Shown piece by piece: positions 35,201-63,339 of a stretch of 64,000 nt of DNA. Origin of the DNA: Pohlia nutans (taxonomy: Eukaryota > Streptophyta > Bryopsida > Bryales > Mniaceae); NCBI GenBank assembly GCA_022496805.1, contig CM040094.1:4239501-4303500 (forward strand), given 5' to 3'. Below the pieces are notes generated by a model. It was given only the letters and a program-made list of their open reading frames with translations. It was not told where the DNA came from and did no database searches. The position numbers and the translations under genes are program-made. Position 1 is the first letter of the stretch, and every line of letters begins with the position of its first letter.

Positions 35201-37803
35201 TGGATGAGCTATCACAACGAGTCCATAGATGGAGAGGGACCTTGTAATTATCAGTGGATTGACCAGTACCAGGGGTAAGAGTAAATATCCTAAGTATATC
35301 AATCAAATCCTAAACAAAAAGCCAACCTTGAGCCACTTTAAGTGGAAATTGCGACCATAATGAGCAGTGCCGTGGGCGTACTTCCAGACCCCTCCACCCA
35401 CAACGCCTCCTATCTTGGACATCATCCGGGCACAACCCTGTAATGTAACAGTAGAAACAAGATGAATGATGGACTAAAAAAAATCTCAACCACTCTAGGC
35501 AAGATTTTCAAATTCACTGCGTGGAAAACAGGAAGGATTATGCACACAATCAATTGACTTATGCAGGCCATAATGATCACTATACAAGCAATTTCTTATT
35601 AAAAAAATTTAAATTTAAATTCAGTTTGGCATAATTTCAGTCTTGAAAGGACAATCTCACCTGAAAATGTCGAGTTTCGTTGACTGAAAATACCAGTACA
35701 ACATGTTCACATGTATCGAAGGCTTCGTTGAGTTTGCCCTCGTTATTGCGATGTGTGGCCCAGAGTCCCCGCTCCACTGATAGTTCCAAGTTTTCTTTAT
35801 TACTACTCTTTACGATAAAGTATCTGCAAAATTTAAAGACGAGACTTCTCAGTCTTTGATCTAAGCCGACAGCGTGCCTCAGAAAGGTAAAAAGGCACTT
35901 AATTGATACTGAATATGAGAATAAAATCTGCAGCTACTACGTACACCGCACATAAAAATGTGAAGACGTTGCTAAAAGACATTAATGCTGATTGCTGAAT
36001 GATCTGTATCTGAAGCACTTGTACATTCCAGACGTTATCTTTTCTGATCAGACTTATCTAGAACAGAACTTGTACATTCCAGACGTTTATATTTTCTGAT
36101 CAGTCTATTCTGTCACAGTTTTTCATCATACCTTCAAACGAATTTTTCCACATGATTTTGGTAGCCTTCCTGAGTATGTGTAAAACTAACGGATGTCTTT
36201 TCTTTTCATTTGGGTAGGTGTACTTGGTAAACATCCGGTTGCGTAGAGTGGAAACAGACATTCTTATCACTGTTTATAAGCCTCTTGCTATCAGGTAAAG
36301 ACCTTGAGGAAGCCTTTATATTCCTTGAACGGTAGTTTCTTAAGAGCCGTGGCAAATTGTTACGAAACTTCTAAAGATGGACAACACTAACCTCTCTGAA
36401 CTCGCTTCTAAATGGAAGGAGAAAGTAGACAGAAAACGAAGCTGCAAGGACCGAGTTAGACCCCAAACCCAGAGAGAGGCGCATAGATCTAATGCAGCTC
36501 ACCTACATAACCCATGCGGTATGGGTGCGGCGTTCGATGGAAAGGGAGCAGGATTTACAGGCCCGTTTGCCATCGCTTGCGCCGGAGGTAACTGAGGTGT
36601 CACTTGCAGTGCAGGAGGTCGAGCAGAACGAGGCGGTGGTACCTCCTCAGCGTTTGTGGCCCTGCCTCCCGTTTGACCACCCTCCACGTTTCGAGCAGAA
36701 GGATATTTGCCAAGATGCCCCGTCGTGGTTCCATTCGTATTCGGAGCATAGACCCGGTGCGAAATCTTTTGTAGGTTCTGATCCACGGATGGTGGAGGGC
36801 CGGGCAGTTTTTGGTGACGATATCGACAGTCAGGTCCATTTGGACAAAACCCTAACTTATACCTAATACACGAAACCGAACAACAATGAGTGAAATGCAC
36901 ATTCACTTCTTTCCTTCCAATTCAACAGTTCGTAACCAGAGATCACAATCACTTAACCCCTAAAAGACCAAGGATTCATGGTTTTAAATGACAAATTCAA
37001 TCAATAATAGTATGCAAAATATAGGACTACATTTATACCACCGAATTTAGTGAACAAAAAGAAGTCTACATAGGACCTACACAAAACTGCCAGAAGAAAT
37101 ATGAGGCCTGATTCGGGCTTCTTGGTCCTCTAGGGGTTAATGACACAGACAGGAAGCAGACTAGACTTTCATTCACACATTACTATAGAAACACTCACGA
37201 TGAGGAAAGTCTCCAGAACAAGTAAACACAAAACAACAGAGACCTCACAAAAGCCAACCTAAACTCACTTATGAAACTCAAAACCCTAACTACAAGTTTC
37301 GTGCTCTAATGCGACGAAGAAAAGAATCCTCACCACTCTAAAACAATCCCTAAGAAGAGAACGCACTCGAAAAACAGGATCATTTAGGGCTAGCCCGAAC
37401 CAGAGGAAGAAGAAAGGACTTACATATTACACTCTTTGATGTCTTCATTAGTGTGCTTGTAAATGCAATCCGGCTCCCGACACTCTCCGAACTTGGCAAA
37501 GAACCGACACACAGGCATCCGCGCCTTATCAAATTGGTGCAAGAACCCGCAGGCGTCCCCTTTCATGCACAGACCTCGCAACCAATGGCGACACACGGTT
37601 TGCCTGTAATTCTTTCGCGCTTGCTGGTTCTTCGGCGCAGCGAGCGACGACGGAGCTTGCACATTATTATTAACATTATTCACTGTCGCGGTGTGCGCCG
37701 GAGCGCCCCCAGCGGCTCCCCCCTGCGGAGGTCCTCCCGCCGCTACAGCCGCCTCCAAGCCTCCCTCGAAATCAAAACTCAAACCTCCGTCGGCGTCCTC
37801 CAT
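32265..37803 (-). CDS. CPSF30: CPSF30-L: cleavage and polyadenylation specificity factor 30-kDa subunit with YTH domain
   Basis: Nine exons join in phase to 792 residues: 37803-37424, 36862-36503, 35823-35661, 35437-35327, 34606-34538, 34404-34318, 34092-33492, 33092-32703, 32482-32265. The N-terminus MEDADGGLSFDFEGGL is the conserved plant CPSF30 start. Three CCCH fingers follow: CRHWLRGLCMKGDACGFLH; CRFFAKFGECREPDC with IYKH; and CNMYKLGFCPNGPDCRYRH, which spans intron 1. A YTH domain begins RYFIVKSSNKENLELS and contains RGLWATHRNNEGKLNEAF and GGGVWKYAHGTAHYGRNF, with tryptophans where the m6A-binding cage lies. The C-terminus has an acidic stretch, a Gly/Pro/Met-rich repeat region and a basic region. 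The family binds pre-mRNA poly(A) signals in the CPSF complex, and the plant long form reads m6A. The Arabidopsis long form is about 630 residues, so this one is longer, mostly through the GPG repeats. Exon 1 start choice rests on conservation. Confidence 0.95.
33575..33740 (-). repeat. 21-bp coding minisatellite in CPSF30
   Basis: About eight or nine head-to-tail 21-base units encode the heptad GFMGPGE/D/A within CPSF30 exon 7. Units differ at few positions (CCCATGAACCCATCTCCAGG versus CCCATGAATCCTTCTCCTGG on the plus strand), which is typical of slippage-prone coding repeats. Confidence 0.9.
35824..36502 (-). promoter_or_regulatory. CPSF30 intron 2: candidate site for the short zinc-finger-only isoform
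   Basis: If the donor at 36,502 is not used, translation runs from TGTAG into GTGA and stops at once, giving about 246 residues with the three CCCH fingers and no YTH domain. Plant CPSF30 is known to make such a short form by polyadenylation inside intron 2. No canonical AATAAA is seen on the minus strand here. Confidence 0.5.
36953..37140. mobile_element. TTAA-type MITE in CPSF30 intron 1, 188 bp
   Basis: The perfect-looking ends TTAACCCCTAAAAGACCAAG and CTTGGTCCTCTAGGGGTTAA lie wholly inside intron 1 (36,863-37,423). This is the cleanest short member of the family. Confidence 0.85.
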
Positions 37804-38307: not shown

Positions 38308-39438
38308 TCACTCCTCTTTGTGAGGCTTGGAAGTAGAGACCTTCTTGTGGCAATTTTGAGCCCTGTGACCTTTCTCGCCACAATATAGACACAAGTCTTC
38401 CTTATGACGACGATCTTTCTCTTCTTGAGAAAGTCTCAGAACCTTGGAAGCGTCAATTTGCATTAGCTCGGGCATTGATGAATTGGTTTGACGTGTCGAT
38501 GTTACAGTATCGGCTCGATATGGTCCTGATGATGATCGACGTTCCTGTCGGCGCTCGAAGAGTTGATTATCGCACCGTACCGCTTGCGTAATAGCTTCTA
38601 ATAGTGTAGTTGGATCTGGAACATTCAATAGCAAGTCTTTAACGTCATCTCGTAATCCCCAATGAAAAGCGATGATAAGGGCTTTGTCGTCCCAATCCAC
38701 ATCACAAGCAAGTTGTCGGAATTCTGCGGCATAAACAGAAGCTGCACGCGACCGTTGTTGCAACGACCAAATTTTTGTTGTTGCGGTTCTTTCTTTGTCA
38801 GTTTCACCAAAGGTATTGGTGAACTCTTCAAGAAAACCATCAAAATCTTGAAGTAGAGGAGAGTCTTTTTCCACAAGTGGTGAAAACCATGATAAAGCAG
38901 CTCCAGATAATAACGTTCCAATGAGTCCTACTCGAGTTTCTTCAGTAGGATATTGTAATGGCTGCATACGGATGATCAGTTGGATTTGATTTACAAACCC
39001 TCGAAACTTAGAGCGGGTTCCATCAAATTTGTCTTGGAGTCCTATTCTTGGCTCCTTTGCTGCTAGTAGATCTGGAGTTGTGGCAGCAACTGGAGGTTTC
39101 GGAGATCTTGAAATTGAAGCTTGAAGTTGCTTGAACGCATGTCGCAAGTTGTTGTGCTCTTCTTGAAGTTGTTGCAGTGCACTCCACATGTCATTGACTG
39201 AAATCCCTTGATCGAATCTTGTATCCCCCATGTTGAATTCAAGTAATTTCAAAAGATAAACCTTCCCTCGAAGAACCTTTGGTACAATTAATGGACGAAA
39301 AGACCTCAAGAAAATTTGATACTCACGCTCTCCGCGCTCTCGAATAAAAATGTCTCTCTGCTCAATTTTTGATTTGCAAGAGAAGAAATTTTCTAAAACA
39401 ATTTGTCCAATCAGAATCGAAAGACAATTCAAGTCCAT
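38308..39438 (-). CDS. Sushi/Tf1-like Ty3-gypsy Gag protein (solitary, no pol)
   Basis: The open frame is 376 codons from ATG 39,438, or 307 from the better-placed internal ATG at 39,231 (MGDTRFDQGISVNDMW). Residues after the second Met form a coiled coil (WSALQQLQEEHNNLRHAFKQ). The retrotransposon Gag fold follows, with KFDGTRSKFRGFVNQIQL, GTLLSGAALSWFSPLV, FLEEFTNTFGETDK, SVYAAEFRQLACDVDWDD and AFHWGLRDDVKDLLL. Next is the zinc knuckle CLYCGEKGHRAQNC (CX2CX4HX4C), close to the C-terminus. The layout is that of the Tf1/sushi Gags, the group also domesticated in mammals as PEG10/RTL proteins. No protease, reverse transcriptase or integrase follows: the CPSF30 leader begins right after the stop. 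It is either a truncated element or a retained gag gene. Confidence 0.85.
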   Translation of the reverse strand: MDLNCLSILIGQIVLENFFSCKSKIEQRDIFIRERGEREYQIFLRSFRPLIVPKVLRGKVYLLKLLEFNMGDTRFDQGISVNDMWSALQQLQEEHNNLRHAFKQLQASISRSPKPPVAATTPDLLAAKEPRIGLQDKFDGTRSKFRGFVNQIQLIIRMQPLQYPTEETRVGLIGTLLSGAALSWFSPLVEKDSPLLQDFDGFLEEFTNTFGETDKERTATTKIWSLQQRSRAASVYAAEFRQLACDVDWDDKALIIAFHWGLRDDVKDLLLNVPDPTTLLEAITQAVRCDNQLFERRQERRSSSGPYRADTVTSTRQTNSSMPELMQIDASKVLRLSQEEKDRRHKEDLCLYCGEKGHRAQNCHKKVSTSKPHKEE

Positions 39439-40080
39439 GTAATAACTACATCAAGACTTTTAAGAACTCTCAAGTATTAAAAGTTCAAGATCAGAACAAG
39501 ATTCGAAAGCACAACATAAAATAATACTAGCCCAGAGGAGGGTAATCTGCAACCCCTAGAATGCTCTAGTATTTTCAAGAAAGGGATAATCCACTCTTAT
39601 CAAAAAAGACCAAACTCTAGTATTGTCAATGTCAGTCTCGTCAAACTATCAAGGATACAAGAATTCGAGAACATGAAGTGCAATGGTACACAAGAGTGGC
39701 TCTCAAGAAAGTATATTGAACTAGATTGATAGCTTGAACAAGATAGAAGAGAAGACAATACTAAAGATTGCTACTAAATTGGTGTTGACGAGACTGAGGA
39801 GTCCCTCGTCTCGTCCCCTATATATACTAATACTATAAGACCTCGAGGAAGTCTTAGGAAGTATTTAGAATACTATAGAAGATCTTGGAAGCTTCTAGAG
39901 ACCTAGGGAAGTTTCTAGAAGTTCGTGGAAGCTTTTAGGAACTCGTGAAAACTTCTAGAAGCTCGTGGAAGCTTTTAGAAGTCCGTGGAAGCTTCTAGAA
40001 GTTCTTGGAAATTTCTAGAAGTGTCTACAAGGTTCTAGAAGTGTTTAGAAGGTTCTTTGGAAGTTTTCTTTGCAGTCTAA
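39439..40080 (-). promoter_or_regulatory. LTR-like promoter and leader of the gag ORF
   Basis: Reading the minus strand, a repeat-rich block (40,080-39,860) is followed by a TATA box (TATATATAG, about 39,826-39,819) and a roughly 380-base leader to the gag ORF. This matches U3-R-U5 plus leader order. No second LTR, TG/CA ends or primer-binding site could be fixed, so LTR limits are not given. Confidence 0.5.
39868..40075. promoter_or_regulatory. Array of heat-shock-element units upstream of gag
   Basis: The run is made of alternating GAA/TTC modules with 2-bp spacing, such as GAAGCTTCTAGAAGTTC (about 39,987) and GAAGCTTTTAGAAGTCC, repeated with a period near 20 bp over about 200 bp. Consecutive nGAAnnTTCn units are the binding site of heat-shock factor trimers. 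The array ends about 40 bp upstream of the TATA box on the minus strand. Confidence 0.65.
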
Positions 40081-51539: not shown

Positions 51540-51552
51540 TATCCGAGTAGGG
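51540..51552 (+). repeat. Target-site duplication, 5' copy (TATCCGAGTAGGG)
   Basis: This is identical to 54,974-54,986. The 13-bp perfect match at both ends of the A/C-rich block defines the insertion. Confidence 0.9.
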
Positions 51553-51553
51553 A

Positions 51554-54493
51554 TGCAATGAAGATTGCACAAACACATGCCGAATACATTTCCCACCACA
51601 CACACTCAAAGATAAATATAAAATATACAACCCCCACAGAATCCCCAGAACACCAATAAACCCCGTACAAATCCCTCAACCACCTCAACCACAACAACCA
51701 GCTCCACCACAAAACATAAAAAATGACCCCATAAGATTCCCCATTAGCACAATATTAAACCACAAAACAATTACAACAAAAGATAAATATAAAATACCTA
51801 AAAAATACAACACCTATCTATGTCAATGGATAGACTCAAACCACATAACATACAATAAATGGTTACAACAACGCGAACTATTTCCACTAAACCTACCAAC
51901 AGTAATACATCATAATCTAAATCTACTTACAAACTATTACACAAATTATAAAAACAAACAACATCAAAATATCATAAATACACAATTTACACCCGAACAA
52001 AATAGAGACACAAGATACATCCCACCTCCAACAATAATCTCACACATTAAAACATCCACAATTGAATGTAACCCAGAAAGAGACATAGACACAAACAAGT
52101 GCACCATTCAAACACAAAATGATAAAACCCACATATATAATGACACCGGTAAATATATCACCACCATTCCAACTACAAGAATAAAATGGTTATGGCATCA
52201 ATATAACAACAACAAATACAACATCCACAGACTAATACCTGCTATACAACCATTTGAAACAGAAGTAGTCTGGCTATACCAAAGATATGAACACAAAAAC
52301 CACAAAAAGAATACAATAAGAACACCACACCATACCATTCCATCCAACATTCTAGACACACTAATAACAACATTTAATATAACACACTCATACTTTTCCT
52401 CACCAATTACATGTTCCATGAAATCTACCCAATTCTACTCAACATTCGCTAGAGACAAGATTTTTGGCTCACTAGGGGAAGCCTTTCAATACAAATGGAA
52501 AGGTATCGGATATGCACACCCAAATGATGCTGAAACAACACAACAAGCAATACATTGGGCAAGACTAGCAGCAAAACAAGACCCAGAAACTGTCACCATT
52601 TTAGCAATCCCAGACACCAACTGGTATCAAAATCTATCACCGTACAACGGACCCTTCCCGGATACGCATGCCATTATACATTTTGCCGCGGACACCATTA
52701 CGTATGACGAACCTACAATACCACTAGAACCCAACAAAACCCGAAACGAACCACTTGCAATGTATATATGGTGTATACACCATCAAAACAACAACATTGG
52801 CACGATAAACCAAATAAACACCATAAACACAACAATAGAAAATCTACAAATCCCGCAATACCATACACAAACAACACCACCCACACCACCAAACACAAAA
52901 GTTAACAAAAGCACAAAATGGAACAAACTCATATACCCGCCCTATAACAATCTACAAAACATGTGGGTAAATCCCCTTCCAAATTTCGAAATAAACACTA
53001 CACTAAAATTTCTACCACAATACAGCTACTACACAGATGGATCCTTTTTACCACCTAAAGAAGATGATGACGGCCATTGGAAAAAAGAAAAAGCTGGATA
53101 TGGAATCTACAACCCATCTAAACCAGATGTACAAATATCAAAAAGACTGCCTGGATTACAAACATGCTTCAGAGCAGAACTAATGGCCATACATGAAACA
53201 CTTTCACTAATCACCACTAAATACATAAACGAACCTGCACATATTTTTACTGATTGTCTCAATTGTATACATGTTCTAAACACACAACTAAAACAGCCAA
53301 CCCAACAAAACAACCACGCCGATAAAACCATATTAGAAGAAATGGTAAAAATGGTAAAAATGCAAACACAACCAACTACAATATACAAAGTTAAAGCACA
53401 CGCTAAAATTAACGGAAATGAACACGCATACCAACTCGCAAAAGAAGGCACCATGAAAAGAGGTTATCAATTTGCAGTAAATCCACACGAATTTGCACAT
53501 ACCACACCTTACTACTTCCAAAAAGACACATGGCCCGGTCGTATCAAACGACCAGACAAAGGACCAGTTAGATGTTTGGAAGAATACATAAAGAAACATG
53601 ACCGAGAAAATAACCTAGAATTACTGGCACAAGACTTTCCCAACATTAACAAATGGACAACAAACCCCGTCATAGATAACAAAATGTCTAATGACTTTTG
53701 GAATAACCCAGCAATAACAGACTCACAAAAAACAAGCATACTAAAATTTAGAACCGGTCAATACATGGGTAATGCCAGAAAACAATTAATTTTCGGCATA
53801 CAAAGATTCCCCTCAAAAACATGTCCCATCTGTAACTCACAAGACGCAGATACATGGCTACATGTACTCTTAATATGCAAACAACACCATATACACGCAC
53901 TAAGAACCAAAAGGCACAATAAAGCGGTATGGGAATTAAGAAAATTAATACTATCCTCAAATAAATCAAGATGCTACACTCTCATGAATGCGGGCACATT
54001 CAACAATAACCCACAAGAAAACACAGTCCCTACATGGTTATTACCATGTACTTGTAATCAACAAAGATGTCAATGTAATGCTAGATTCAAACCAGATATA
54101 TTATGCATTAAAGGCCTCCCATACCAAAGCCCACCTCCTCTAAACCCCGCTGATAACCTAACCATACAATTCATAGAATTCACATACACAAACGACAGAT
54201 TTTCACCAGAAACAATTGGCAGAATTTTTTTTAAATACCAACCTCTAATTAATAACATTATACAACAAGGTTGGAAAGTAGATCCTATCATAGTCATTAC
54301 AGCAGGAGCTAGAGGAACCACACACGTCCCCTCTATGAAACAACTAGAAACAAAATTCAACATTTGTGAAACCTCCATAAAACACACATTCAAAGCAATA
54401 AATACCATTGCCATACAATATGCCGGATCTATCCTTTTACATAAAAGACGTATAGAGAATAATCAAACAATACCAACAGATGTAGTACATTAA
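51554..54493 (+). CDS. LINE polyprotein C-terminal part: PCIF1-like domain, RNase H, CCHC finger, nuclease-like domain
   Basis: The frame is open from the first element base to TAA at 54,493 (979 codons). The first in-frame ATG is only at 52,418, so the protein is 5'-truncated, not initiated there. In order: a Pro/Gln-rich linker (residues about 20-45); helical region with WLYQRYE; PCIF1-like core with YFSSPITCSMKSTQFYSTF, FGSLG (residue 304) and YAHPND (about 320), where active PCIF1 has NPPF; IHWARLAA and ILAIPDTNWYQN. Then RNase H: YTDGS (D495), AELMAIHETL (E542), FTDCLN (D567), YKVKAHA and GNEHAYQLA, with Tyr 626 at the usual fourth Asp. A zinc motif CPIC...HVLLIC starts at 757, and a CTCNQQRCQC cluster follows. 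The C-terminus has FKPD (D848), IEFTY (E875) and FFKY (K894), resembling the PD-(D/E)XK endonuclease of R2-type LINEs. It is part of a retrotransposon replication protein. Confidence 0.8.
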   Translation, partial: CNEDCTNTCRIHFPPHTLKDKYKIYNPHRIPRTPINPVQIPQPPQPQQPAPPQNIKNDPIRFPISTILNHKTITTKDKYKIPKKYNTYLCQWIDSNHITYNKWLQQRELFPLNLPTVIHHNLNLLTNYYTNYKNKQHQNIINTQFTPEQNRDTRYIPPPTIISHIKTSTIECNPERDIDTNKCTIQTQNDKTHIYNDTGKYITTIPTTRIKWLWHQYNNNKYNIHRLIPAIQPFETEVVWLYQRYEHKNHKKNTIRTPHHTIPSNILDTLITTFNITHSYFSSPITCSMKSTQFYSTFARDKIFGSLGEAFQYKWKGIGYAHPNDAETTQQAIHWARLAAKQDPETVTILAIPDTNWYQNLSPYNGPFPDTHAIIHFAADTITYDEPTIPLEPNKTRNEPLAMYIWCIHHQNNNIGTINQINTINTTIENLQIPQYHTQTTPPTPPNTKVNKSTKWNKLIYPPYNNLQNMWVNPLPNFEINTTLKFLPQYSYYTDGSFLPPKEDDDGHWKKEKAGYGIYNPSKPDVQISKRLPGLQTCFRAELMAIHETLSLITTKYINEPAHIFTDCLNCIHVLNTQLKQPTQQNNHADKTILEEMVKMVKMQTQPTTIYKVKAHAKINGNEHAYQLAKEGTMKRGYQFAVNPHEFAHTTPYYFQKDTWPGRIKRPDKGPVRCLEEYIKKHDRENNLELLAQDFPNINKWTTNPVIDNKMSNDFWNNPAITDSQKTSILKFRTGQYMGNARKQLIFGIQRFPSKTCPICNSQDADTWLHVLLICKQHHIHALRTKRHNKAVWELRKLILSSNKSRCYTLMNAGTFNNNPQENTVPTWLLPCTCNQQRCQCNARFKPDILCIKGLPYQSPPPLNPADNLTIQFIEFTYTNDRFSPETIGRIFFKYQPLINNIIQQGWKVDPIIVITAGARGTTHVPSMKQLETKFNICETSIKHTFKAINTIAIQYAGSILLHKRRIENNQTIPTDVVH

Positions 54494-54957
54494 AAGAGGG
54501 GGGGGTAGTGGTGAAAACCACTGCTAGCCACTCTTCAAATTCACTAGCTCAGCTTGTCTCAAGGGATAGATGGGGCCGGTTGGTTGGTACAACTTTCCTG
54601 CCATGATAATTCACTAGCAGCACCAAGCCATGTGTATCACACCACTGCTCAACGAGCCCAACTGGTTTCGAACCCGGACCACATAATCGTGATACAACGC
54701 CCTTCACCAACCAACCAAAGAACTCATGACTTGGCGATTAAACTTAACACTAAACATACCTTTATACAAACTAACACTCATCCAACAGAACTTCGCTTTT
54801 CTCCTCTGTTATTGTTACTTTGTTTTGGTTACTATAGTGTCCATCCTCGAAAGGGGAGAGTAGTATTGTTCCAATGTCCCTTTGTCCCGTGGGCATCGGG
54901 TCATTGACATTACGAACGGACACTTTATTCACGCCGGCCCTTTCTATAGGGTTGGTG
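54494..54957 (+). other. LINE 3' UTR with tRNA-like segment
   Basis: GGTTTCGAACCC (54,664-54,675) matches a pol III B box. GGTTGGTTGGT (54,578-54,588) pairs perfectly with ACCAACCAACC (54,706-54,716) and closes a tRNA-sized domain. It may be a SINE-like module or an RNA structure recognised by the LINE protein. Confidence 0.45.
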
Positions 54958-54973
54958 TTTCTATCTATCTATC

Positions 54974-54986
54974 TATCCGAGTAGGG
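54974..54986 (+). repeat. Target-site duplication, 3' copy (TATCCGAGTAGGG)
   Basis: It directly follows the CTAT tail and is identical to 51,540-51,552. Confidence 0.9.
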
Positions 54987-60919: not shown

Positions 60920-62605
60920 CACAAACATATGTGAAAATACCCCACTTAATCCCCGATTATCCTACACATGATAAATGATATTCCCAGGACAGTTGCATTT
61001 GAAAGCTTTTGACATGAATACTCATAGAATAGTAACAAAATCAAACAAGGATTGGAAATTCACCGAAACACAGTGGCAAAAATAGACATGATGAGCGCAC
61101 TTAAACAATTGGAAGGATGAAAGAGGCAGGGGTGATTGCGAACATGAGTGTGGATGCAAAATGCAGGGAACACACAAGCTTTGTATATATGGAGTCGTGC
61201 ACTTGGCCCATCGCCTAAGCTAACCTCGTGACGCCTCAAGACGAGGCAACACTATGTTTGAGTGTGGGCTCGGCGAATCCGAGTTGGTCGCCATCAACAG
61301 TCACAAATACCCTACATCGGTTGCCCGCAAGTCATGCTGCTCGTGTGCAACCATCTAACTAAACACCTGCATTCTTCTGTCATTTGTGTGCGGAATTGCA
61401 GATGTATTCTTTAATTCTTTCATGTGACTTCCCAGTTTGGATGTAGTTCGTCGTCTTTAGTTAGTACTTTAGTGTGACTCACACTACTGTCCTCACAAAA
61501 AACAATTCGACACATGTGTATCTGCTAACATACTATAACTTTTAATGGGCCAAAAAGCCTGAATTTGGTGTAGTAGTTTTCTTTTAACAATTTTGAATAG
61601 GTATAATGTGAACTTCCCTTTTTAAATTTAGTTTTTTTTTTTTTATCAATACATGTAATTCAACGTTTTCATTGATTCATGTAGTATAAGTCTTCGTCCC
61701 ATTTTTCAATTGCATTGATTCACGTAGTATAAGTCTTGGTCTTGTTAAAGCATAAATGGATATAAGGTACTTTATGTGAAGTTTAAAAAAACTGTATATC
61801 AATGCAAATGCACACCGGTGAGTGGCATATGGGACCCACTAGTTATGTACATTATGAATGAGAAAAGATTGTCATACTCCACTTATAATATATAAATAGA
61901 GTTTTTTTGGAAGTTCTAAGAATATTACTCTATATGAATTGTACTTTAGAAGTCCCAATTGTTACTCACCCATGAAAGCTTTATAAAAAAATTATTCCAT
62001 AAGTAAATGATGATTTTGACAATTTTAGGTTCTTTGAACAGCAATTGTTGAAAACACCTAAATGAATCATGTTAAAAGTAGACAATTATGGAACATTTGG
62101 TCTCAAGGTAAATTTCCCATGCCCCTAAATAGGCTAAAAATAAACTCTTAATTGAGTAAATACACACTAACTGGACAGTCACAAAGTCAACACTCAGCAG
62201 CAATTTTCCCGCAGCAGGGTGGAGATGCTCTAATGTCTTGAGAATGGACAAATGCAGAGAAGCGTGCCACACCAGTGTACGGTTTTTCAAGTCGGGTATC
62301 AATCCTCAAAAGGTTATCAGGCAGCCAATCTTGAAGAGGGTATCAATCCGCCAACCCCATTCAAGCTCCTGGTCACTTCCATTGTACTCTTGAGTGGCCT
62401 CTCGGCTCTTCTAGCTTCGGCGACTCGATCCGTCACCGGGAGTTCCATCGCCAAATCCGACCTCCCACAGCACCTTCAAAACCGATTCCCTCTCCGATCT
62501 GATTTCCTCACCGTCAGTCACCGCTCCACCCGCCTTTCTATGGTTCTTGTTTCATCATTTTTGGTTGAGTATTGAGTGAGAACGAGCGCAATTAGGGTTT
62601 TAGCG
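60920..62605. other. Upstream region and probable 5' leader of the OGDH gene
   Basis: A decayed TTAA-family copy lies at about 61,545-61,750 (CCAAAAAGCCTGAATTTGG, TTTTGAATAGGT, GTATAAGTCTTGGTCTTG). Bases 62,280-62,605 are GC-richer and probably 5' UTR. The frame there (62,252-62,575) ends in a stop before the OGDH start. Confidence 0.45.
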
Positions 62606-63255
62606 ATGGTGTGGTGTCGCGTGAGCACCGCGGCCGCCACGGCGTTGGCGCGATCGGCCGTGCGACAACAGGCGAGATCGAGCGGCTCCTTAGTCGGGAA
62701 AGCAACTTTTTACACTCGCACTCTTGGAGGAGGGGAATCATCGCATTCAACGAGGGATTTGAGTTCGGCGTTGACGGGATGGGCTCGCGCGTTGCACTCG
62801 TCGAAGGAGAGGCTGCAGCAGCAGTTAGCCTCCCCGAGGAGCGTGCCGTTGTCGAAGCTGACGGACAATTTTCTGGACGGGACGTCGAGTGTGTACTTGG
62901 AGGAGCTGCAGCGGGCGTGGGAGGTCGATCCGAAGAGCGTGGATGAATCGTGGGACACGTTTTTCCAGAACTTCACGGGGCAGGCGGCCACGAACGTCGG
63001 CTTGTCTGGGCAGACCATTCAGGAGAGCATGCGCTTGTTGCTGCTTGTGAGAGCGTACCAAGTGAATGGTCACATGAAGGCCAAGCTCGATCCCTTGAAT
63101 CTTGACGACCGCAAGATGCCCATGGAGCTTGATCCTGCTCTCTATGGATTCACTGAGGCTGACCTCGATCGGGAGTTCTTCCTTGGTGTGTGGCGAATGT
63201 CCGGTTTCCTTTCTGAGAATCGACCGGTGCAGACTTTGCGAGCCATTCTGTCAAG
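62606..63255 (+). CDS. 2-oxoglutarate dehydrogenase E1 subunit, mitochondrial, exon 1 (gene continues beyond window)
   Basis: The ATG at 62,606 starts an Arg/Ala/Ser-rich, acid-poor mitochondrial presequence (MVWCRVSTAAATALARSAVR). The conserved E1o N-terminal region follows: LTDNFLDGTSSVYLEELQRA, WEVDPKSVDESWDTFF, LLVRAYQVNGHMKAKLDPLN and ELDPALYGFTEADLDREF. The exon ends after RAILSR at AAG|GTATG (63,255), phase 1. OGDH E1 is the thiamine-diphosphate-dependent decarboxylase of the TCA-cycle 2-oxoglutarate dehydrogenase complex in the mitochondrial matrix. The thiamine-binding domains would be in exons to the right. A TTAA-type MITE sits in intron 1. Confidence 0.93.
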
Positions 63256-63339
63256 GTATGTTGATTTTTTTTTGAAGCATTTTTGCTACTTTTCCATGGC
63301 TTGAAGAGCAATCCAGTCTCCTTGGATGCTCATTTCATA

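Follow-up and report, generated by a model that had tools for sequence, protein, structure and literature searches.

A Pohlia nutans LINE with a PCIF1-type methyltransferase fold between reverse transcriptase and RNase H

The locus

Within a stretch of 64,000 nucleotides of Pohlia nutans DNA (assembly GCA_022496805.1, contig CM040094.1, positions 4,239,501 to 4,303,500 of the forward strand, here termed the window) lies a truncated copy of a long interspersed element (LINE), which belongs to a family that carries a domain with the methyltransferase fold of PCIF1 (also known as CAPAM) between reverse transcriptase (RT) and RNase H. A preliminary description, made from the letters of the window alone, had called it a LINE with such a fold beside RNase H and a nuclease-like domain, had proposed that the fold was captured or shared by the element, and had suggested that it could bind or mark the element's own transcript. 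That the element is a LINE is borne out. The features of the window copy are as follows, in window coordinates.

51540–51552, + strand: left target-site duplication, TATCCGAGTAGGG, an exact 13-bp repeat flanking the element
51553–about 54973, + strand: 5′-truncated LINE copy, bounded by the two duplications
51551–54493, + strand: 980-amino-acid open frame, the C-terminal third of the element's polyprotein
51728–52000, + strand: chromo-like segment, residues 60–150, fold only suggested
52094–52840, + strand: PCIF1-like methyltransferase-fold domain, residues 182–430 (Pfam PF12237, PDB profile search, Foldseek, VIA-align)
52517–52528, + strand: HPND, residues 323–326, at the PCIF1 catalytic NPPF site (alignments)
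53009–53470, + strand: RNase H domain, residues 487–640
53429–53431, + strand: Tyr where the RNase H motif GNEHAD has its conserved Asp, unique to this copy (1 of 30 copies)
53822–53878, + strand: CCHC zinc knuckle, CPICNSQDADTWLHVLLIC (alignment with R2/NeSL-like relatives, labelled as such by eye, and R2 fold match)
53879–54475, + strand: R2-type restriction-like endonuclease (RLE), with PD at 54092–54097 and E at 54176–54178
54494–54959, + strand: 3′ untranslated region (UTR) of the element, matched in other copies
54960–54977, + strand: (TCTA)n tail, overlapping the right duplication
54974–54986, + strand: right target-site duplication, TATCCGAGTAGGG

On its + strand the window has TATCCGAGTAGGG at these two places only. 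The duplication (sought for the window copy only), varied 5′ truncation and a microsatellite tail are marks of target-primed insertion, and the window copy is a recent arrival. Its start falls inside the frame of two full-length copies, L031 and L032, and its 3′ end is GGGTTGGTGTTTC, followed by (TATC)n. The 3′ UTR recurs at 87–99% identity in 37 other loci (30 other insertions, 7 of them represented twice), the search having matched all 38 loci compared, the window's own included; at one locus, L010, the 3′ end is split into two pieces. Tails of most copies are TATC repeats, that of L020 being TAT-rich, and the flanks beyond the tails differ, by eye, between insertions, with the pairs L006/L016 and L009/L019 looking alike, each of which may reflect insertion in the same host repeats. 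Being 5′-truncated and without RT, the window copy is not capable of autonomous movement, and its RNase H additionally has the unique Tyr in GNEHAD. The element is strongly strand-biased: its coding strand is A- and C-rich, with a GC skew of −0.34 and an AT skew of 0.37 over window positions 52001–54000.

Full-length copies and layout of the element

A search of the genome (698 Mb in 332 contigs) with the window frame yielded, from 6605 first-look candidates, 47 scored places, a lower bound, which are the window's own and 46 others with 92–99% amino acid identity. Eight 10-kb genomic stretches were examined. In two of them, L031 and L032, a frame runs from stop to stop without interruption for 2629 and 2736 amino acids, respectively; that of L034 runs for 2293 amino acids and is followed by one stop and the remainder. 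By Pfam, both L031 and L032 contain Exo_endo_phos, the apurinic/apyrimidinic-type endonuclease (APE; PF03372, 26.2 and 26.0 bits against a cut-off of 24.5), as well as RVT_1 and PCIF1_WW, so that full-length relatives do carry RT upstream as had been anticipated. The APE motifs GDFN and SDHSPV are present upstream of RT in the full-length copies. Compared with the PDB, the L031 protein matches R2 with E 3.1e-32; chains other than those of R2 and RNase H1 all fall short of E 0.1. Pfam listed no RNase H in L031 and L032, probably a filter miss in such long proteins; phmmer finds it at residues 2142–2284 of L031, and its motifs are present. The domain that had been described as nuclease-like is the CCHC knuckle with RLE, both R2-type on the grounds listed above.

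A 2A-type motif, NPGP, is present 5′ of APE in the long frame of five of the eight loci (once in L031, L032 and L033, twice in L036 and three times in L034). L035 and L038 have it in a different frame, and L037 gave no match. The multiple motifs of L034 and L036 are in one frame and 100–172 amino acids apart. 2A in non-LTR retrotransposons was already known (PMC4981915; this and the other papers cited by PMC number are drawn on for the parts of their text that were available). The full-length element would then be a single polyprotein with a basic leader, one or more 2A/StopGo motifs, APE, an R2-like RT, a chromo-like segment, the PCIF1-like domain, RNase H, a CCHC knuckle and a C-terminal R2-type RLE.

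The genome was also scanned with PF12237, and all 150 scored places, from 1183 candidates, were above cut-off. The best 10 of the 150 all have the LINE-type domain, its motif at the NPPF position being HPH or HPN in the nine where it is readable (the tenth, L040, is broken there). No host cellular PCIF1 gene is among these best 10, in a search that an intron-split gene could escape.

Identity and fold of the PCIF1-like domain

In the 980-amino-acid window frame PF12237 (PCIF1_WW) is above cut-off, as is RNase H. A family profile compared with the PDB gave PCIF1 at E 2.8e-12 and 1.1e-11, with the next match at 0.19, and Foldseek against 350,542 PDB chains gave six matches at E≤0.001, all of them PCIF1; the profile search and the structure comparison that the preliminary description had named as checks on its PCIF1 assignment are both in its favor. 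Similarity to PCIF1 by chance, without true relationship, would suit the result of single-sequence phmmer against the PDB, where PCIF1 appears only at E 1.4, but with Pfam above cut-off (at 150 of 150 genome places too) and with the profile and structure matches just given, its probability is next to nil and it was rejected. A cellular PCIF1 pseudogene that happens to be next to a LINE was likewise rejected, as the full-length copies encode the domain and RT in a single frame, and relatives have it with RT plus RNase H. The presence in this LINE of a PCIF1-type methyltransferase fold between RT and RNase H is confirmed, the fold by prediction and profile.

The structural match, by Foldseek and VIA-align, covers PCIF1 417–668 only, and the part of crystallised PCIF1 ahead of residue 417 is mostly unmatched. 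The helical domain of PCIF1, credited with cap recognition, belongs to that part. Cap binding is doubtful because the match omits most of the region ahead of residue 417. The family alignment has seven invariant residues, six of which (S, P, S, D, F, G) match, by eye, the PCIF1 residue. Pfam scans of the window frame, L031 and L032, which missed RNase H in the two long proteins, gave no WW-domain family.

As to the chromo-like segment, an AlphaFold prediction gives three strands and a helix, and its best PDB profile match is the CDYL chromodomain at a non-significant E of 0.75; no chromo family is among its weak Pfam matches, and the VIA-align rows hardly covered residues 48–145. Chromodomain identity of residues 60–150 is only suggested by the predicted model.

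Relatives

An initial protein search yielded 23 relatives, for 14 of which a PF12237 match had been precomputed. With the RT part as query there were 20, of which P0025–P0028 have PF12237 together with RT and RNase H, at 28–35% identity over the best-aligned 20–38% of the query. Another, P0024 (34% identity), matches the PCIF1-like profile, and Pfam does not list PF12237 there. In all, five distant relatives (P0024–P0028) combine the domain with RT and RNase H; it is between the two by coordinates in P0024, P0025, P0026 and P0028, and by eye in P0027. The proposal that the element had captured or shares the fold therefore stands as to the presence of the fold, and not as to any private possession, these relatives sharing it. 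For APE, P0024 and P0028 score above cut-off and P0026 below it (17.7 bits); P0025, the sequence of which begins within RT, gave no APE match. The window-derived profile matches 27 of 43 proteins, and a third search gave 174 proteins, the best 120 of which are 38–93% identical to the window's stretch.

A PHD finger lies between RT and the PCIF1-like domain in P0025 (above cut-off) and in P0028 (just below cut-off). Its position is that of the chromo-like segment in the window family, and chromatin targeting is possible. Upstream, cysteine-protease-like domains differ among relatives, with Ulp1 in P0029 by Pfam, and OTU-, Ulp1- and Josephin-like motifs, by eye only, in P0026, P0028 and P0024. 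A PCIF1-like domain was suspected by eye in the Ulp1-bearing P0029 and in P0030 and is not claimed: hhalign was not significant, with Prob 0.3 for P0029 alone, within the range of 30 shuffles; the pair, compared over 35 columns and without shuffles, gave Prob 1.4. Two fragments of this LINE family, P0061 and P0116, carry archaeal labels in public records (Candidatus Nitrosocosmicus), probably owing to contamination of metagenome-assembled genomes by eukaryotic DNA.

Active site and selection

The catalytic loop of PCIF1, N553–C557, contains NPPF, and mutants of N553 and F556, in which NPPF becomes APPA or SPPG, serve as inactive forms (PMC10544176). At this position the window family has HPND, with the equivalents of both N553 and F556 replaced, which leaves the idea of the element marking its own transcript unsupported. 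Genome copies have AHPND in 29 of 30 cases and AHQND in one. More widely, 137 of 154 public proteins (all 137 distinct) can be aligned to the profile, 129 of them with sequence at the motif, the position of N553 being occupied by His in 120, Asn in 4, Tyr in 2, and Phe, Thr and Ile in one each; none of the 129 has NPPF. These counts draw on the best 120 of the 174 third-search matches and are not independent, the proteins having been found by likeness to the window family, with many being fragments or close kin. The Asn-bearing relatives have NPEY (P0025, P0027 and P0028) or NPPP (P0024). Judged from the alignments, replacement of NPPF is fixed in the family, and is not the decay of a single copy. 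Elsewhere in the domain the SP of FxSP is kept in 113 of the 131 relatives with letters there and D..FG in 118 of 130, and the PCIF1 active-site loop F479–P494 (numbering as assigned here) is, by eye, apparently not conserved.

Selection was assessed by pooled pairwise Nei-Gojobori comparison of the 14 of 30 copies that are stop-free (16 were dropped, and the strand with fewer stops was taken), and the ratios of non-synonymous to synonymous change (dN/dS) include neutral changes from young copies. For the PCIF1-like domain the ratio is 0.164 (0.205 in core residues 265–360 and 0.210 in residues 300–330). CCHC plus RLE gives 0.148, RNase H 0.229, the chromo-like segment 0.278 and the linker, residues 441–486, 0.288. 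By this measure the PCIF1-like domain is under purifying selection, and the element seems to need it about as much as its other enzymes.

Comparison with known systems

The Dualen/RandI group of non-LTR retrotransposons combines APE with a PD-(D/E)XK-type RLE in one element (PMC4640811, PMC3636483), and RNase H has been reported for it (PMC4640811). The window family similarly has APE upstream of RT, RT, RNase H and RLE in the same protein, with APE found in L031 and L032, and not in the window copy, as it is truncated; it differs in having 2A motifs and the PCIF1-like domain between RT and RNase H. Dualen elements have a cysteine protease, and Pfam showed none in L031 and L032, in the scan that also missed RNase H there. 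Going by domain order, the window element is a LINE of Dualen/RandI layout with an R2-like RT. R2 itself shares the type of RT and of CCHC-RLE; unlike it, the window family also has APE and RNase H, so RLE is not the sole endonuclease. R2 has a fixed ribosomal DNA target; the 3′ flanks of the window family, compared by eye with one another only, vary among copies.

With PCIF1/CAPAM the likeness is in the methyltransferase-domain fold over 417–668 and in FxSP and D..FG, whereas NPPF is lacking, Pfam showed no WW match, the helical domain is largely unmatched, and the setting is a retrotransposon polyprotein. Drosophila PCIF1, described as catalytic-dead and still with a role (PMC10544176), offers a parallel as a homologue without catalysis, though it is a cellular protein outside any mobile element. 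Giant-virus PCIF1 proteins (Pithovirus LCPAC101, Tetraselmis virus 1, Hokovirus HKV1) have the same fold by Foldseek, but are viral and, at 316–482 amino acids, too short for RT and RNase H as well. DIRS retrotransposons carry a Dam-like methyltransferase, again a methyltransferase-fold domain in a retroelement, but of a different methyltransferase family and a different class of element. The preliminary description knew of no account of this domain order, and searches of open-licence literature, as far as its searchable text extends, gave no description of it or of a PCIF1-like domain in a retrotransposon; the word PCIF1 does not occur in the available text of PMC8226300, a Chlamydomonas genome paper that includes Dualen elements.

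What the domain may do

The PCIF1-like domain is, we consider with somewhat more confidence than doubt, a retired methyltransferase fold that serves as a nucleic-acid-binding module between RT and RNase H. With the active-site motif replaced, its probable role is to bind nucleic acid and not to methylate it. The ligand would be RNA or an RNA/DNA hybrid, perhaps with S-adenosylmethionine still bound, and the domain could be a connection module, keeping the template in place from polymerase to RNase H during target-primed reverse transcription. PCIF1 is reported to be active on RNA/DNA hybrids as well as single-stranded RNA (PMC10544176). Several considerations count against this. Nucleic-acid binding is something we infer; the domain could instead be a protein–protein or structural module; and NPEY, with its Asn-Pro and an aromatic residue, and NPPP may, to go by these motifs, mean activity in parts of the group. 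In addition, trees of RT, the PCIF1-like domain and RNase H plus RLE from six elements did not decide between joint and separate inheritance of RT and the PCIF1-like domain, and placement with Dualen/RandI is by layout only.

A working methyltransferase, re-specified for adenine or another target with NPEY or HPH(N/D) replacing NPPF, and marking the RNA or cDNA of the element, is unlikely. Retention of the presumed cofactor-pocket motifs (SP of FxSP and D..FG), purifying selection on the domain, and the Asn, Pro and aromatic residue of NPEY in the three relatives would fit it, but the use of the APPA and SPPG mutants as inactive PCIF1 (PMC10544176), the absence of N553 and F556 equivalents from the window family, and the seeming lack of conservation of F479–P494 tell the other way. 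The homology to PCIF1 could also bring to mind a role in cap reading, in which the domain would attach to the element's mRNA at its 5′ end for cis-preference or cDNA completion; with the structural match restricted as it is to PCIF1 417–668, this is very unlikely. A structural spacer or protein-interaction platform without nucleic-acid contact has in its favor a position between two enzymes and the loss of the catalytic motif, and is improbable given conserved pocket-side motifs and a dN/dS near that of the nuclease domain, both being weak arguments. More speculatively, and with little likelihood in our estimation, this whole dual-endonuclease group of LINEs would have acquired a PCIF1-type methyltransferase in the distant past and would to this day apply it to its own nucleic acid, as a working enzyme on element RNA or cDNA in the NPEY/NPPP lineages and as a reader or clamp in the HPH/HPN lineages. 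If true, an epitranscriptomic enzyme fold would be built into a reverse-transcription machine.

Other features of the window

Elsewhere in the window are a Ty3-type retrotransposon gag open reading frame (38311–39450, − strand; PF03732, 3.8e-16), a 2-oxoglutarate dehydrogenase N-terminus (62576–63301, + strand; PF16078, 1.4e-14), and a CCCH zinc-finger exon (36502–36921, − strand), below cut-off in Pfam and CPSF30-like by eye.

Implications

For annotation, caution is called for, as PF12237 matches in eukaryotic genomes may be LINE fragments and not PCIF1 genes. The motifs NPPP, NPEY, HPH and HPN form a natural series of altered active sites, and the copies with intact frames make the domain testable. 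An abundant LINE whose replication polyprotein includes a domain of the family responsible for cap m6Am methylation offers a new part for studies of target-primed reverse transcription.
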